Below the pieces are notes generated by a model that did not search any database, was not told the DNA's origin, and saw only the letters and a program-made list of their open reading frames with translations. Positions 11,075 to 32,220 of a stretch of 32,220 nucleotides of DNA are shown one piece after another (the stretch's first letter is position 1; each line of letters begins with the position of its first letter). Source of the stretch: Bacteroidales bacterium (lineage in GTDB: Bacteria > Bacteroidota > Bacteroidia > Bacteroidales > VadinHA17); contig JANYJP010000051.1 of assembly GCA_025358455.1 (NCBI GenBank), positions 1 through 32,220 of the forward strand, read 5' to 3'. A program made the position numbers and the translations under genes.

Positions 11075-12850
11075 TTATTGAATTTTCATATAGTTAACAA
11101 GCCCTTTTCTGTCAATAATCTGTTTTAGTTTCTCCGGTAGCGGTTCAAAAGAGAATACTTCAGATCCAATAGATATCTCTCCCTTATCAAAGCTTACTGT
11201 AACTTTGTTCCCTGGTTTATAAGCTTCCACAGCTTCTTTATGAACTATTAGCACAAGCCCCTGATTTATTGAAGACCTGTAAAAGATCCTGTTGACTGAT
11301 TTTACAATTATTGCTTTTATACCTGAATAGGCCAGGCCTACTGATGGATGTTCCCTGGAGCTTCCGCAGCCAAAATTATCTCCGGCTATAATGAAATCGT
11401 CTTTCTTAACATTCCTACTGAATCCCGGATCAAAATCTTCAAAAAGGTGAGGTATGATGGCTTCCGGATCAGTGCTCAGAACATTATAAGTGTATTTTCC
11501 TGCAAACATCTGATCAGTATTCAGATTATCAACATCTGAATAATTCCATACTGTTCCAATCCTTCTGTTTTCACCTGGTTTTATCTCAAATGTTTTACTC
11601 TGTGTTACTTTATATGGAAATTTTTCCTTACCCTTAACAATTCTTGGATCGGTTATAACTCCGAATAAAGAGGAGCATGCTACTGTGGCTGGTGAAGCAA
11701 GATAAATCTGAGCCTCTTTATTACCCATCCTTCCCGAAAAATTGCGGTTAGCCGTTGAAATTACCGTATGTCCGTTTGCAGGTATCCCCTGTCCGGTTCC
11801 AAGACATGGACCACATGAAGGTGTCAGTACATTTGCACCTGCATTTATGAATGTTGAAATAATTCCTTCGTCGATTGCCTGGAGGAAAATTTTTCTTGAT
11901 GCCGGAATAATGTTTAACTGAAAACTATCCCTGATACTTTTCCCTTTCAAAATACCTGCGGCAATTCTCATGTCCTCTATCCTTCCGTTTGTACACGTAC
12001 CAATCAGACCTTCGTGAACTACCGTACCCGCTACTTCTGCAACAGATTTGATATTATCCACATTATGAGGTGCTGCAACCACAGGAAATACTTCATCCAG
12101 GTCGATATTAATTTCGCTGAGGTACTTTGCTCCTTCATCGGCCCATACTCGGGTTATCTTCTCATTAAAAAATTTATCCAGTATCTCATCAGCAGGAAAC
12201 ACAGCATTTTTTGCTCCCATCTCCGAAGCCAGATTAGCTATAGTCATCCGGTCTGACATATCAAGTGTTACTACGCCTTCACCATGATATTCAATTGACA
12301 TATAGTTTGCACCGTCTGACCCGATCATTCCAATGATCCATAATGCCAGGTCTTTAGCCGAGACATTCTCTGCCAGCTTTCCGGTAAGGGTAATTTTAAT
12401 TGATTCCGGCACCCTGAACCAGGTTTCTCCTCTTTTCCAGATCCCAGCAGATTCTGTGCGGTCAATTCCAGCTGCCAGTGCGTTAAATGCCCCTGCTGTT
12501 GATGTATGACTATCGCTTCCAACAATCAGCATACCGGGTTTCGCATGGTACGACATTATCTGATGACAAATTCCCTTGCCAGCATCATAAAATTTTTCAA
12601 TGCCCTGCTGTTTAACAATATCCCTTATCTCCTGATACTGAGTTGCAAGTTTTGCATCAGCAGGCGGGGCATTATGATCAAGAACCACAAGTATCTGGTC
12701 AGGATCAGCGACATTCTTCCCATCCATCTTCTGAAATGTCTTATAAATACTTGATGTATTGTCGTGTGTAAGAATAATATCCGGTCTGGCAAATACAATT
12801 GCGCCAGCTGGCGCTTTGAATATTTTTTCAGCAAATGTTTGCGGTATCAT
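11075..12850 (-). CDS. Aconitase-superfamily hydro-lyase, fused large and small (LeuC+LeuD-like) domains
   Basis: 591 aa. The large domain has VLDHNAPP at 57-63, a GSDSHTSTAG motif at 111-120, and the three cluster cysteines at C286 (TCTNGR), C346 and C349 (SCGPC). The swivel domain occupies about 435-591 with GCGSSREH at 494-501. All hallmarks for a [4Fe-4S] aconitase-type dehydratase are intact. The length of about 590 aa is much shorter than the common bacterial AcnA (about 890) or mitochondrial-type aconitase (about 750) and equals a LeuC plus LeuD fusion. Its start overlaps the upstream paralogue's stop by 4 nt. It may be a short aconitase, isopropylmalate, homoaconitate or methylated-malate dehydratase; sequence alone does not decide. 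No leu genes flank it. Confidence 0.88.
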   Translation of the reverse strand: MIPQTFAEKIFKAPAGAIVFARPDIILTHDNTSSIYKTFQKMDGKNVADPDQILVVLDHNAPPADAKLATQYQEIRDIVKQQGIEKFYDAGKGICHQIMSYHAKPGMLIVGSDSHTSTAGAFNALAAGIDRTESAGIWKRGETWFRVPESIKITLTGKLAENVSAKDLALWIIGMIGSDGANYMSIEYHGEGVVTLDMSDRMTIANLASEMGAKNAVFPADEILDKFFNEKITRVWADEGAKYLSEINIDLDEVFPVVAAPHNVDNIKSVAEVAGTVVHEGLIGTCTNGRIEDMRIAAGILKGKSIRDSFQLNIIPASRKIFLQAIDEGIISTFINAGANVLTPSCGPCLGTGQGIPANGHTVISTANRNFSGRMGNKEAQIYLASPATVACSSLFGVITDPRIVKGKEKFPYKVTQSKTFEIKPGENRRIGTVWNYSDVDNLNTDQMFAGKYTYNVLSTDPEAIIPHLFEDFDPGFSRNVKKDDFIIAGDNFGCGSSREHPSVGLAYSGIKAIIVKSVNRIFYRSSINQGLVLIVHKEAVEAYKPGNKVTVSFDKGEISIGSEVFSFEPLPEKLKQIIDRKGLVNYMKIQ

Positions 12851-14658
12851 AGTAAGCCTCCCCTTTGGTAGATTTCAAACTGAACATCTGAAAATGGATC
12901 TGATTTGTACAATTGTTTATTCCTGAGATTTTCAATCTCTCCTGTTTTAAGGTTTACTCTTACCCGATCTCCATCTTTCATATCGTTCTGCCCAATATCT
13001 TTGAATGTTATTATCGGAAAAGCGGCATTAATAGCGTTACGCTCATAAATGGCCCCAAAAGATTCAGCAATAATAGCTTTTATCCCCAGTGAAGAAAAAC
13101 AATCGACTGCCTGTTGTCTGGAACTGCCACATCCAAAATTCTTTCCTGCAATAATTATATCACCCGGCTTGGCTCTTTTTGAAAAGTCTTCGAAGCCTTT
13201 AAGATTATCGAAGGTATACTGTCCCATTTCTTTAATATCAGTAATCGCCAGATATCTGTTATGAAAAATCATATCCGTATCGATATTATCCTTTTGAATA
13301 ACCCATATCCTGCCTTCAATCACTGAGTCCTTAATTACAGAAGATTTTTGTATGGAAGCTGATTTCTTAATTTCAGCCGGTCTATCGGGCGATCTGAATA
13401 ATGCCGGTTCAGAAGGGATGTTATCAGGAGTTGTGATATAACCGGCAATAGCAGATGCAGCAACTACTTCAGGAGATGCAAGGTATACGCTTCCTTTACC
13501 TTGTTTGCCGGGAAAGTTCCTGTTCCCCGTACTGATAGTTACCTCCCCCGAACCATTTTGACCTACCTGTCCTGAAGCACAACCGGCACAACCTGCATTT
13601 GAAACAAGGGCTCCTGCATTTTTAAAAATATCAATCAGCCCTTCATCAAGGCATTGTTTCCAAATTTCATCTGTTGCCGGAACAATTTTCAGGATTACTC
13701 CTGGTGCTACTTTTCTGCTTTTCAGAACAGAAGCAACTTTAAACATGTCTTTCATCCTTCCGTTTGTACAACTGCCAATAAAAGCGGAGTCAATTTTTTT
13801 GCCATTTACTTCTGATACATTTACAGTATCATGAGGTTCTCCCGGACGAGATACCATCGGTCTGAACTCCGATACATTAATATCGAAACTCTTTTCATAA
13901 TGTGCATCCTTATCAGCAAAGACCGGTTTAAATTTTTTAAATGAACGATCGGTACAATAGTCAATTATCGCCTTTGAAGGAGGAAAAATAATTATTATGG
14001 CTCCCATTTCAGTAGCCATAGATGAGATAGTAATTCTGTCATCAAGTTCAAGATCATCTACAGAGGCGCCATAAATCTCAATTGAATATCCCAGTAATGA
14101 ATTCGCCCCGAATATTTTAAGAAGATTAAGCACAATGTCTTTCGCGCTAACGTCAGCAGGCATTTTACCTGAGAAATTTATTCTTACAGATGGTGGAATT
14201 TTAAACCAGACTTTCCCGTTATGCCATGCAGCTGCTATATCCATATCGCCCATTCCCTGACCGAAAGCGCCTACTGCACCAAGAATATTTGCATGAGAAT
14301 CAGTTGATAATGCAGTTGAACCAGGATACACATATCCTTTTTCTATAAGTATATGTGTTCCTATACCTGCATCAATATCAAAAACTTTAATACCCTGTTC
14401 CCTGGCAAATAGTCTGCAGATATGTTGATTAACGGCATATTTCTGATCTGATCCGGTTGGATTACAATCAAACGTAAAAAAAGTTTTTTCCGGATCGTTA
14501 ATTGTAAGTCCGAAATCTTTAATGTTTTTTATAACATTCGCACCTCCAAAATCGCGGGCTGCTCTTGAATCTATTTCCACATCAACAATTTCACCTGGTT
14601 TTACACTTGAATACTTTGAGTGTGCAGCCAGTATTTTTTCAAGCAGGGTCATTGCCAT
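12847..14658 (-). CDS. Divergent aconitase-superfamily hydro-lyase, fused large and small domains
   Basis: 603 aa, paralogous to the gene it overlaps by 4 nt downstream. Cluster cysteines are present at C297 (SCTNGR), C357 and C360 (NAGCAGC), with the usual GPC changed to AGC. The swivel domain at about 450-603 has GCGSSRQQ at 509-516 instead of GCGSSREH. The usual DHN near the N-terminus reads DCN (64-66), and DSHT reads DSHA (120-123). Together these point to a hydro-lyase for a substrate other than that of its partner. The motif run TDSHANILGAVGAFGQGMGD recalls the homoaconitate/dimethylmalate-type branch, from memory only. Translation could also start at Met3. It lies 54 nt downstream of an AraC regulator gene that probably controls both. 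Confidence 0.85.
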   Translation of the reverse strand: MAMTLLEKILAAHSKYSSVKPGEIVDVEIDSRAARDFGGANVIKNIKDFGLTINDPEKTFFTFDCNPTGSDQKYAVNQHICRLFAREQGIKVFDIDAGIGTHILIEKGYVYPGSTALSTDSHANILGAVGAFGQGMGDMDIAAAWHNGKVWFKIPPSVRINFSGKMPADVSAKDIVLNLLKIFGANSLLGYSIEIYGASVDDLELDDRITISSMATEMGAIIIIFPPSKAIIDYCTDRSFKKFKPVFADKDAHYEKSFDINVSEFRPMVSRPGEPHDTVNVSEVNGKKIDSAFIGSCTNGRMKDMFKVASVLKSRKVAPGVILKIVPATDEIWKQCLDEGLIDIFKNAGALVSNAGCAGCASGQVGQNGSGEVTISTGNRNFPGKQGKGSVYLASPEVVAASAIAGYITTPDNIPSEPALFRSPDRPAEIKKSASIQKSSVIKDSVIEGRIWVIQKDNIDTDMIFHNRYLAITDIKEMGQYTFDNLKGFEDFSKRAKPGDIIIAGKNFGCGSSRQQAVDCFSSLGIKAIIAESFGAIYERNAINAAFPIITFKDIGQNDMKDGDRVRVNLKTGEIENLRNKQLYKSDPFSDVQFEIYQRGGLL

Positions 14659-14712: not shown

Positions 14713-15561
14713 TCAATTGAATTGTGCCCTGTAATCTCTGGGGGAGATTCCCTCAGTTTTCCGGAATTGTTTATTAAAATTTGATATACTTGCAAAGCCG
14801 CATTCCATAGCAATATCCTGTACCTGGTATTCTGTTTCACGCAAAAGGTAACATGCCTTGTTTGTCCGAACCCTGTTAAGGTATTCAACGAACCCGGCGC
14901 CGCAATTCTTTTTAAAATACCTGCTAAAAGCAAATGGGCTCATAACGGCAATTTTTGCAATATCATCAAGAGAAATTGGTTTGAAATAATTTTCCCTTAT
15001 GTATGTGTAAACATCTGTCATCCGCTTATTTCCCCGTTCATCATAAGCGAGTTTATAATTCTCAGAACACAGGTATCCTTTTCTTTCCGATGATGTTAGA
15101 ACTTTAATCAGATTGAAAAAATCAATCATTTTATCGATTCCCTTATTATTTACCATCTGAACAAAGTGCTTTTCAGCTTTTTTCGCATCTTCAACCGAAA
15201 AAACTATTCCTCGCTCTGCTTCATATAGTAGTTTCTTAAAGTCATGAAATTCGTGTTGCGACAATAGTTCGTCACCAATTGAACTAAGTTTAAAATGAAC
15301 TATTATACCGGGCTTTTCCTGAAGAGTATTATTATGTCTGTAATAGTTCCAGCAGTGAGGAATATTCCCGGCAAAAAAAACCATGTCGTATTGATCAAAT
15401 AATTCCACACTGTCCCCTATAATTCTGGTTCCGTTGCTTTTTATATTCAAAACCAGTTCACATTCCGGATGAAAGTGCCAGAAGCCATTAGTATCACTGA
15501 TGTATGCAGCTCTGAATCCACCGCTGTCATCATACATTATCTTTTCAAGTTCAGCAACCAT
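14713..15561 (-). CDS. AraC-family transcriptional regulator with cupin sensor domain
   Basis: 282 aa. Residues about 15-110 form a cupin-like sensor (GFWHFHPECELVLNIKSNGTRIIGD, later FFAGNIPHCWNYY). The C-terminal 100 residues contain the two helix-turn-helix units of AraC, SLDDIAKIAVMSPFAFSRYF and VQDIAMECGFASISNFNKQF, and end with the family signature GISPRDYR. It is encoded immediately upstream of the two aconitase-like genes in the same direction (54 nt gap), so it is likely their regulator, responding to a small molecule. On the minus strand a TAAATTTG -7 match lies at 15592-15599, without a well-spaced -33 element. Confidence 0.92.
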   Translation of the reverse strand: MVAELEKIMYDDSGGFRAAYISDTNGFWHFHPECELVLNIKSNGTRIIGDSVELFDQYDMVFFAGNIPHCWNYYRHNNTLQEKPGIIVHFKLSSIGDELLSQHEFHDFKKLLYEAERGIVFSVEDAKKAEKHFVQMVNNKGIDKMIDFFNLIKVLTSSERKGYLCSENYKLAYDERGNKRMTDVYTYIRENYFKPISLDDIAKIAVMSPFAFSRYFKKNCGAGFVEYLNRVRTNKACYLLRETEYQVQDIAMECGFASISNFNKQFRKTEGISPRDYRAQFN

Positions 15562-15653: not shown

Positions 15654-15685
15654 TTTGATTATTGATTTAATATTCTTTAAATTTG
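15654..15685 (+). promoter_or_regulatory. Bacteroidota-type promoter for the structured RNA
   Basis: TTTG at 15654-15657 and TAAATTTG at 15678-15685 are separated by 20 nt, matching the TTTG-N19/20-TAnnTTTG consensus. Transcription would begin near 15692, just before the first arm of the long hairpin. Confidence 0.65.
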
Positions 15686-15691
15686 TTCCAA

Positions 15692-15903
15692 GCTCATGCT
15701 ATTGGTATAAAGAGGAGATGAGCAAGGGTAGATAGTGAAAATCAACAGGATTGTATTGCAGACATTGACTTTCACATCAGGGATCTTAGGAATAGCGCCA
15801 GCTAACCATGGTTCCATCCTTTTATCAGACAGTAGATACGGGAATTATCTCATAAATAAAGCCCGCTCCTGATTTTCGCAACTACCCTTCCTCCTCTTTT
15901 TTA
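15692..15903 (+). ncRNA. Candidate structured non-coding RNA (~210 nt, 6S-like architecture)
   Basis: The stretch has no open frame, but its two ends pair over a long distance. AAAGAGGAG (15709-15717) pairs with CTCCTCTTT (15891-15899), AAGGGTAG (15724-15731) with CTACCCTT (15882-15889), and GAAAATCA (15737-15744) with TGATTTTC (15870-15877). These are three collinear helices separated by small bulges. The last arm runs into a run of six to eight T, as in a terminator. A promoter match sits directly upstream. A rod about 190-210 nt long with a large unpaired centre (about 15751-15866) is the shape of 6S RNA. I could not match primary sequence to any family, so 6S is a guess from size and form; the RNA gene itself is better supported. 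Confidence 0.55.
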
Positions 15904-16028: not shown

Positions 16029-16036
16029 TAACTTTG
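16029..16036 (+). promoter_or_regulatory. Candidate -7 box for the BioG-like gene
   Basis: TAACTTTG matches TAnnTTTG and lies 58 nt before the start codon. No clear TTTG lies 19-21 nt upstream. Confidence 0.4.
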
Positions 16037-16094: not shown

Positions 16095-16826
16095 ATGAAG
16101 ACCTATATCAGAAGAAGGGAAAAGAATAAGCAGCTTGTAGTTTTATATGGTGCATGGGGAACAGATGAAAACGTATTTGCTCCGCTTTGTAATGATGAAT
16201 TTGATTTTATTCTTTTCTACAACTATTCGGCCGATGAAGCCCTTGTACTTCCTGAAATGAAGACATATGAAAAAATAACTCTTATTGGATGGGCTTTTGG
16301 TGTGTGGGCGGCCGAGTATTTATCTCCTAAAACAGGCATTATCCCGGATGTTACTATTGCTGTTAACGGAACTCCTGTTCCGGCGGATGAACAATATGGT
16401 ATTCCGCTTAATTTAATTGAAGGTACTTTAAATAATATTACTGAGGAAAATATCGGGAAATTCTATCTTCGGATGTTTGGGGACAAAAAAACATATCAGG
16501 CCAATATTGACAGGGTTCCGCATAGAACACTCAAATCATTACACGATGAACTCCGATGGTTATATAACCGGATAATGGAACAGAAGGAATCCGGATTCAG
16601 GTGGGACTATGCAGTTACTAGTGAAATAGACCGGGTTTTTCCTTCAAAGAATCTCGAAGGGTACTGGACCAGGGAAAAGAATACTAAGCATATTATCCTT
16701 CCCTTACCACATTACTTCTTTCATAAGTGGGGGACATTTACCGATTTCATAAGTTTCGTTGAAAACTACGAGAAACAAACTCCCAAACAAAGAAAAGCTT
16801 CCATAAAGGAAATTAAAGGTCTTTGA
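16095..16826 (+). CDS. BioG-type pimeloyl-ACP methyl ester esterase homologue with Ser-to-Ala nucleophile
   Basis: 243 aa, typical length for BioG (DUF452). It has the family's blocks: LVVLYGAWGTDENVF, the nucleophile elbow, AVNGTPVPADEQYGIP, then DRVFPSKN and LPLPHYFFHKWG. BioG is an alpha/beta hydrolase that releases pimeloyl-ACP from its methyl ester in biotin synthesis. In this copy the elbow reads GWAFGVW, so the expected serine is Ala67 (codon GCT), while the probable Asp179 and His206 of the triad are kept. No other biotin genes are in the window. It may be an inactive or re-purposed member, or carry a recent point mutation. Its 3' end overlaps the convergent YihY gene by 14 nt. Confidence 0.8.
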   Translation: MKTYIRRREKNKQLVVLYGAWGTDENVFAPLCNDEFDFILFYNYSADEALVLPEMKTYEKITLIGWAFGVWAAEYLSPKTGIIPDVTIAVNGTPVPADEQYGIPLNLIEGTLNNITEENIGKFYLRMFGDKKTYQANIDRVPHRTLKSLHDELRWLYNRIMEQKESGFRWDYAVTSEIDRVFPSKNLEGYWTREKNTKHIILPLPHYFFHKWGTFTDFISFVENYEKQTPKQRKASIKEIKGL

Positions 16827-27797: not shown

Positions 27798-27971
27798 TTT
27801 TTAATTAGTTCATCCACTGCAATGCAAAACCGTTAACATATTTATAGTTCAATAAAAACCAAATTATCAGATAACATCTCTGATATTCTTTGCCGGGTGG
27901 GAAATTAAAAGGTAGGAATCAGTATATGATTCGGCGCTTTTTTTCCCGAAAGCTTTGAATAGTAGCCTTGT

Positions 27972-28125
27972 ATGGCAGGTCTTCTGACTTATCCCGGTTT
28001 CATGAAGCCTTCCCATGACTCCTTAACGTCACAGTGGCAGGTATTTCATAAAGCCATCATCGTTAGAACGATCGGGCATCACAGCAGCGGGTACTGTTGC
28101 GGATTCTAACCGCATTCCCTTTTCA
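27972..28125 (-). promoter_or_regulatory. Cobalamin (B12) riboswitch
   Basis: Read on the minus strand, the conserved blocks of the AdoCbl-type riboswitch appear in order: GGGAATGCGGTTAGAATCCG, then CAACAGTACCCGCTGCTGTGA, the B12 box region TGCCACTGTGACG, GGGAAGG, and the 3' block AAGTCAGAAGACCTGCC. The aptamer ends 175 nt before btuB. No strong terminator hairpin is seen between them, so control is likely by translation initiation. It would shut the whole btuBGFCD-type operon when cobalamin is plentiful. Confidence 0.95.
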
Positions 28126-28150
28126 TTACAATGATTTTATTTCATTGTAA
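28126..28150 (-). repeat. Perfect 9-bp hairpin at the 5' end of the riboswitch transcript
   Basis: TTACAATGA (28126-28134) and TCATTGTAA (28142-28150) are perfect inverted complements around a 7-nt AT-rich loop. The hairpin begins within about 10 nt of the predicted transcription start and directly precedes the aptamer. It could protect the 5' end of the mRNA or be an operator; both are inferences. Confidence 0.6.
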
Positions 28151-28163
28151 CACCAAAACATAA

Positions 28164-28196
28164 CAAAGATAAATGAATTTTTATAACGAATTCAAT
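28164..28196 (-). promoter_or_regulatory. Promoter of the B12 uptake operon
   Basis: On the minus strand ATTG (28193-28196) is followed after 21 nt by TATCTTTG (28164-28171), an exact TAnnTTTG -7 element. Transcription would begin near 28157, just upstream of the hairpin and riboswitch. Confidence 0.55.
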
Positions 28197-32080: not shown

Positions 32081-32220
32081 ATCGAGTAGGAGGAAAATAA
32101 AGTAGTTTTCCTCCTACTTTATTTTCCGACCTCTCACACCACCGTACGTACGGATCACGTATACGGCGGTTCCTTAATACACAACTCTTACCTTTTCATA
32201 ATAATCCAGCAGGAAAACGT
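32081..32220 (-). mobile_element. Group II intron, 3' end (domains V and VI); body lies beyond the window
   Basis: On the minus strand a 34-nt domain V lies at 32171-32138. ACCGCCGTA pairs with TACGGTGGT, followed by the upper stem TACG/CGTA and the 2-nt CG bulge. Domain VI spans 32135-32084. Its lower helix GAG-AGG (32135-32130) pairs with CCT-A-CTC (32090-32084), leaving A at 32087 bulged as the expected branch point. A perfect 14-bp upper stem is formed by 32092-32105 and 32114-32127. The intron would end at 32081 with the consensus AT, six nt after the branch A. It is inserted 116 bp upstream of the LacI gene in the same orientation. Confidence 0.85.
32174..32220 (-). CDS. C-terminal end of the group II intron reverse transcriptase/maturase (partial)
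   Basis: The minus frame gives the last 14 residues VFLLDYYEKVRVVY and a TAA at 32174-32176, ending 2 nt before domain V. Intron-encoded reverse transcriptases commonly end just ahead of or near domain V. The residues visible are too few to prove the family; the call rests on position. Confidence 0.45.
   Translation of the reverse strand, partial: VFLLDYYEKVRVVY

Follow-up and report, generated by a model that had tools for sequence, protein, structure and literature searches.

6S RNA folds as a single rod with a central bubble and one terminal arm. Within the Bacteroidales, 6S RNA and pRNAs have been validated in B. thetaiotaomicron (PMC7366714), and Bacteroides carries paralogous small RNAs, FopS and GibS, that are bound by RbpB (PMC11697453). 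According to the latter report, FopS is about 65-70 nt long, has a single-stranded 5' seed ahead of a terminator hairpin and is present in 12-15 copies per genome; a spread of such sRNAs by phages was suggested (PMC11697453). Two further reports cover 104 candidate RNAs (PMC2864571, which lists Bacteroidales-1 RNA, RF01693) and transcripts of Flavobacterium (PMC9723704). In the literature searched, we found no description of the RNA presented here, termed RNA-A.

RNA-A is encoded on the plus strand of an intergenic gap in the genome of an uncultured member of the Bacteroidales. The gap is flanked by an AraC-family gene on the minus strand and a BioG-family gene on the plus strand; the window, that is the whole stretch of DNA analysed, spans 32,220 nt (Table 1). 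A full Rfam scan including Bacteroidales-1, a check proposed in the original prediction, gave no match at the gathering threshold at this locus and placed RNA-A in no catalogued family; the best match at a permissive E-value was Lnt, on the minus strand and within the AT-rich promoter (E 0.19). Elsewhere in the window, Rfam identified a Cobalamin riboswitch (27957-28173, minus strand, 98.2 bits) and, near the window end, a Group II intron match (32081-32171, minus strand, 40.5 against a threshold of 40), and two adjacent aconitase-family genes on the minus strand (11075-14658) carry the large and the C-terminal domains in one protein each.

Compared with the systems above, RNA-A shares with 6S (RF00013) and 6S-Flavo (RF01685) RNAs its length class, a promoter of its own and a long-range closing stem, but it differs from both in that its core sequence hardly varies, two hairpins lie inside it, hairpin paralogues exist and no Rfam family matches. 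Like FopS and GibS, RNA-A and a second RNA described below, RNA-B, are paralogous small RNAs of Bacteroidales with canonical promoters and terminator hairpins. In contrast to FopS, RNA-A is about 205 nt long and keeps its conserved part within closed helices, and both RNA-A and RNA-B are mostly single-copy; a 5' seed layout of the FopS type was not found, as helix P1 closes RNA-A about 20 nt from its 5' end. A conserved core, a terminator-like closing stem and a position upstream of bioG are features common to RNA-A and attenuators or riboswitch leaders, yet a promoter box precedes bioG in many loci and relatives of RNA-A lie ahead of various genes. Bacteroidales-1, finally, is likewise a Bacteroidales noncoding RNA candidate, but its model did not match at the locus.

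Table 1. Features of the RNA-A locus, with positions in the window unless stated otherwise, and the RNA-B copy of the source genome.
Feature	Position	Strand	Basis or remark
Divergent AraC-family regulator (HTH_18)	14713..15561	-	Pfam
Bacteroidota-type promoter, TTTG-N20-TAAATTTG	15654..15685	+	Sequence; pattern kept upstream of homologues
TTTG box, then 20 nt, then TAAATTTG	15654-15657 and 15678-15685	+	
RNA-A, structured noncoding RNA	15692..15903	+	Predicted 5' end 15690-15692, 3' end in T-run
P1, 5' strand	15710..15717	+	8 pairs (two-sided changes in 6); 97.6% of cells paired
P2, 5' strand	15724..15729	+	6 pairs, 5 with two-sided changes
P3, 5' strand	15735..15744	+	10 bp including one U.G; two-sided changes in 9/10 pairs
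Conserved block 1, AGGAUUGUAUUGCAGACAUUGACUUUCACA, 30 nt	15747..15776	+	Exact in 30/30 loci
P4 hairpin (15780-15785/15810-15815)	15780..15815	+	4/6 pairs with two-sided changes
Conserved block 2, UCCUUUUAUCAGACAGUAGA, 20 nt	15817..15836	+	Homologue comparison
P5 hairpin (15839-15842/15862-15865)	15839..15865	+	90.1% of cells paired; two-sided changes: none
P3, 3' strand	15870..15879	+	Covariation alignment
P2, 3' strand	15884..15889	+	Covariation alignment
P1, 3' strand, into T-run	15891..15898	+	Covariation alignment
T-run	15897-15902	+	Sequence; closing helix P1 runs into it
TAACTTTG, possible own -7 box of bioG	16029..16036	+	TAnnTTTG pattern; 66 nt before ATG
BioG-family gene (PF04301), downstream of RNA-A, same strand	16095..16826	+	Pfam, 2.3e-32
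RNA-B, source genome	G000 contig C102:3651-3688 (L163 about 1470-1562)	-	B' loop search

Promoters of the Bacteroidota follow a consensus of the TTTG / TAnnTTTG type. The spaced pattern TTTG-N19-21-TAnnTTTG was present in 56 of 70 distinct regions upstream of RNA-A homologues, compared with a mean of 0.2 and a maximum of 3 in 200 shuffles. Generic promoter and terminator scans detected neither the promoter nor the terminator of RNA-A; the promoter scan is built for sigma-70 boxes, and the two strands of the closing stem lie far apart. A contig recorded as an ssRNA phage from activated sludge, BK014122.1 (L145), is identical over its positions 1-135 to the RNA-A homologue L111 and switches after base 135 to an apparent phage 5' hairpin. 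The shared stretch begins 5-7 nt inside the predicted RNA-A 5' end and, from the database record, which names run SRR5467091, we infer that the contig derives from an RNA data set. This single case is probably a library or assembly chimera with host RNA, a reading that we prefer over the capture of host RNA by the phage and that argues for transcription of the RNA-A homologue on the strength of one probably chimeric contig.

The stretch 15692-15903 folds with -57.9 kcal/mol (z -2.9), and 1 of 200 shuffles was equally good. As the opposite strand folds comparably (z -2.8), energy alone is not informative about the strand, which was assigned from the promoter, the T-run and the homologues. A first alifold structure (R1, 16 pairs) was poor and was dropped for model R2, a hand structure of 39 pairs designed on L002. 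In the main covariation alignment of 65 homologues (63 distinct), which was made with R2 and hence is fitted to that structure, paired cells made up 88.7%, and 26 of the 39 pairs showed two-sided changes, compared with 12.5 after shuffling (0/500) and 9-19 in slid controls. An alignment of 43 sequences made with MAFFT, and thus not structure-fitted, retained 85.0% pairing versus 41-60% for slid versions; here, two-sided pairs numbered 17 versus 9.0 after shuffling, but 11-21 in slid versions, so that this count is not decisive on the MAFFT alignment. Covariation is carried by P1, P2, P3 and P4. The three collinear helices of 9, 8 and 8 bp originally predicted were borne out closely (P1 8, P2 6 and P3 10 bp), and the pairing of 15709-15744 with 15870-15899, on which that prediction had staked its claim, is kept in homologues across the 65-sequence alignment. 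The proposed stand-alone RNA gene, about 210 nt long and with a promoter of its own, is likewise supported; at the level of sequence, RNA-A is confirmed as a real RNA gene, marked by a promoter of the Bacteroidota type, three collinear helices that close it, and a T-run.

The 5' strand of P3 can also pair locally with 15766-15775, the 3' half of block 1. This alternative reached a mean of -9.1 kcal/mol over 63 sequences, whereas shuffled arms averaged -4.7; for 44 of the 63, no more than 2 of 50 shuffles did equally well. The distal P3 pairing is stronger (mean -17.4), and the modelled energies are compatible with a possible co-transcriptional switch from local to distal pairing.

Between the closing helices, the core of RNA-A is nearly invariant whereas the stems vary. 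The exact conservation of block 1 given in Table 1 refers to the 30 best BLAST places; in 18 further loci found with the covariance model, several of which are the same loci as in the pattern-scan set described below, block 1 was exact in 14, varied in two (only within its first 6 nt or its last nt) and unmatched in two where the sequence holds N. Two of the sequence sets were selected on the core itself: the pattern scan required an exact stretch of 22 bases from block 1, and the full-length set allowed no more than two substitutions in block 2. Invariance in those sets is therefore partly built in, and the 30/30 and 18-locus figures are fairer. A coding function was considered for an AGGAG-AUG with a 5-codon frame in the window (15713-15735). 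By inspection, this frame is absent in homologues such as L022 and L057, and block 1 is without synonymous variation, so no conserved peptide was seen. When pieces of the core were paired with the 16S and 23S rRNA of E. coli, their duplex energies resembled those of 30 shuffles, except for block 2, which was matched by 0/30 shuffles with 16S and 3/30 with 23S; rRNA was not found in the four relatives searched, and this comparison concerns E. coli rRNA, not that of the host. We set the 16S case aside, as the stretch facing block 2 differs in Bacteroidota.

A BLAST search with 401 bases against 98 genomes, including the source genome, gave matches in 54, namely 52 of 58 genomes of the window's genus (one of them, G043, through a mini only; see below) and two weak flank matches elsewhere. 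Of 117 genomes from the window's family, 80 matched the covariance model of RNA-A; these belong to 6 of the 15 genera, with no match in the other nine: 54 of 62 genomes of the window's genus (again counting G043 by its mini only, and with a few copies cut by contig ends or N), 21 of 22 of genus g217 and 5 of the 33 remaining family genomes. Most positives (73/80) had a single match. Searching 393 genomes of the order with R1 under strict filters, and with six candidates scored per genome, yielded only three core-bearing matches, all from the window's genus; the core was absent from the remaining three of six matches, which were dropped as false. A pattern scan of an 84,980-species genome collection returned 87 stretches with the RNA-A motif, whose MAGs are titled Bacteroidales, Bacteroidia, Bacteroidetes/Bacteroidota or Rikenella, with one exception titled Bacillota (L137; see below).

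The neighbourhood of RNA-A is also conserved. Among 67 full-length loci, 62 had a downstream and 62 an upstream neighbour within the fetched DNA; the same BioG protein cluster followed on the same strand in 59/62, and the same AraC protein cluster lay upstream in 52/62. The gap between RNA-A and bioG held a TAnnTTTG box in 30 of the 67 loci, mostly of the window's genus, while in 14 of the 67 the T-run was separated from the bioG ATG by 14-15 nt, leaving no room for a bioG promoter there. Of the family genomes lacking an RNA-A match, 16 were searched for BioG and none gave a hit, in a search that had no positive control; accordingly, bioG and RNA-A may have been gained and lost together.

Among the 98 genomes searched with BLAST, 14 carry part of block 1 at additional places, 22 in all. 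Of the 20 places fetched, a script identified 16 as shorter hairpins, here called minis or A', that combine a stem of 8 bp or more with a T-rich tail, and four not clearly so. Mini stems differ between some copies (for example, AAGGCGACACT versus AAGATGGCATTC). Eight larger mini regions contained six tandem pairs, in each of which A' comes first and a second hairpin, B', follows on the same strand; B' hairpins were also seen singly. Several of the A' hairpins (L031-L050, L176-L183) stand in tandem with B', with a GGTC-N-GACC-like palindrome between them. In L101 and similar minis, block 2 comes before block 1, the opposite of the order in RNA-A. Genes named by eye as HsdM-like, ParA-like and SSB-like are among the neighbours, for which reason we term these sites islands. 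Rfam returned nothing relevant on 11 mini loci. One A'-B' element lies in a MAG titled Bacillota (L137, JAKPZU010000102.1), likely on a misbinned contig.

The B' loop of the minis led to RNA-B, a hairpin RNA of about 95 nt with a core related to that of RNA-A. RNA-B is located just after a fabG-like gene (named by eye) and is followed by either an M48-like peptidase gene or a tRNA-Thr-like gene (also by eye, with an Rfam tRNA nearby in four loci), so that no single downstream gene accompanies it throughout. Compensatory changes are numerous in its stems, and 37 of 42 distinct upstream regions carry a TTATMTTTR box. Aligned with the RNA-B loop, the permuted core of mini L101 scored 34, compared with 15.9 for shuffled sequences and with none of 2,000 as high; in contrast, the natural-order core gave no alignment beyond chance (23 versus 18.9, 322/2000). 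Across 117 genomes, 66 carried both RNAs, 14 RNA-A only, 6 RNA-B only and 31 neither (Fisher p 7e-12, kinship uncorrected), or 63/16/7/31 when the mini-only cases G006 and G020 (B) and G043 (A) were moved. The RNA-B pattern was also found in 17 of 20 further genomes; among these, the genome of L137 has it as a mini only. Rfam returned nothing relevant on four RNA-B loci, and the comparison of RNA-B with phages gave only a 25-nt match (E 0.002), taken as chance.

Taken together, we favour RNA-A as a stand-alone, intrinsically terminated, trans-acting regulatory RNA whose core is bound by a partner shared with RNA-B and is mimicked by the minis, a reading to which we assign a probability of about one half. 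Helices P1-P3 and hairpins P4 and P5 would hold the two nearly invariant strands (30 and 20 nt) together as one core; this core would be the working part, bound by a putative common partner, most likely an RNA-binding protein, perhaps with subsequent pairing to mRNAs. RNA-B would present a permuted version of the same core, on which basis we propose that both RNAs belong to one pathway, and the tandem A'-B' minis would be mimics or decoys for the same putative partner. The neighbouring AraC protein may control RNA-A, and the local and distal P3 pairings may form a switch. A core that is held between two helices and is usable in either circular order is what would be expected of a binding site, which favours a trans-acting pair with a shared partner. 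The main rival, which we regard as doubtful, is that RNA-A is a cis-acting leader of bioG, an attenuator or riboswitch in which a ligand or protein at the core sets termination versus read-through. The almost constant same-strand position of bioG, the loci with the short T-run-to-ATG gap, the alternative P3 pairings and the BioG search in genomes without an RNA-A match, for all its missing positive control, would fit such a leader, but they have to be set against the TAnnTTTG box in front of bioG, mostly in the window's genus, and against RNA-B and the minis, which are not found ahead of one type of gene.

Two further explanations fare worse. The view of the A/B motif as a mobile or recombination (DNA) element, of which RNA-A and RNA-B would be copies that became fixed, appears very improbable: minis do sit at scattered intergenic sites, but promoters, covarying stems and the syntenic copies of RNA-A and RNA-B speak against it, as do searches of IMG/VR, without a match, and of plasmids, with none for RNA-A and one weak 34-nt match for a mini (E 0.05). 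Integron attC sites have conserved outer box sequences and a variable loop; by inspection, the A/B hairpins show the opposite pattern, with varied stems and a conserved loop instead of conserved stem ends. Least likely of all is the original suggestion that RNA-A is the 6S RNA, and thus an RNA polymerase regulator, of the window's family. Its size and long-range closing stem fit, 6S RNA and pRNAs are validated in B. thetaiotaomicron (PMC7366714), and Rfam models detected no 6S RNA in the genomes searched. This last result says little, since RF00013, with 0/98 hits in relatives, matched 4 of 14 controls but missed the one from Bacteroides, and RF01685, with nothing in the source genome, matched no control either. 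The nearly invariant core, the hairpin-sized paralogues and a consensus with P4 and P5 inside the closing helices, unlike the single 6S rod, are at odds with 6S RNA, as are the nine of 15 family genera without an RNA-A match and, within the limits of the filtered order-wide search, the lack of core matches outside the window's genus. Thus, from the original prediction, the RNA gene, its promoter, its helices and, as far as searched, its restriction to a lineage stand, while the 6S suggestion is not supported and the statement that there is no conserved primary motif was wrong in view of the two blocks; RNA-B, the minis and the AraC/bioG synteny were absent from it.

RNA-A, RNA-B and the minis may be an RNA-based regulatory system that has so far escaped description. 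In its widest form, which we put forward only tentatively, RNA-A and RNA-B would be inherited together as a two-RNA system in a single uncultured family of the Bacteroidales; one permutable core would recruit a putative RNA-binding protein, and the tandem A'-B' minis of mobile islands would mimic both RNAs to hijack or block it. If the trans-acting reading is true, a structured RNA of housekeeping-like character with an almost unchanging core, its co-occurring paralogue and their miniature copies would constitute a new RNA-based regulatory module in a phylum that is not known to have Hfq-type chaperones. Where the core recurs in permuted form, as in the minis and RNA-B, it hints at the portion of the RNA that matters, and the core would provide a ready bait for its protein or mRNA partner.
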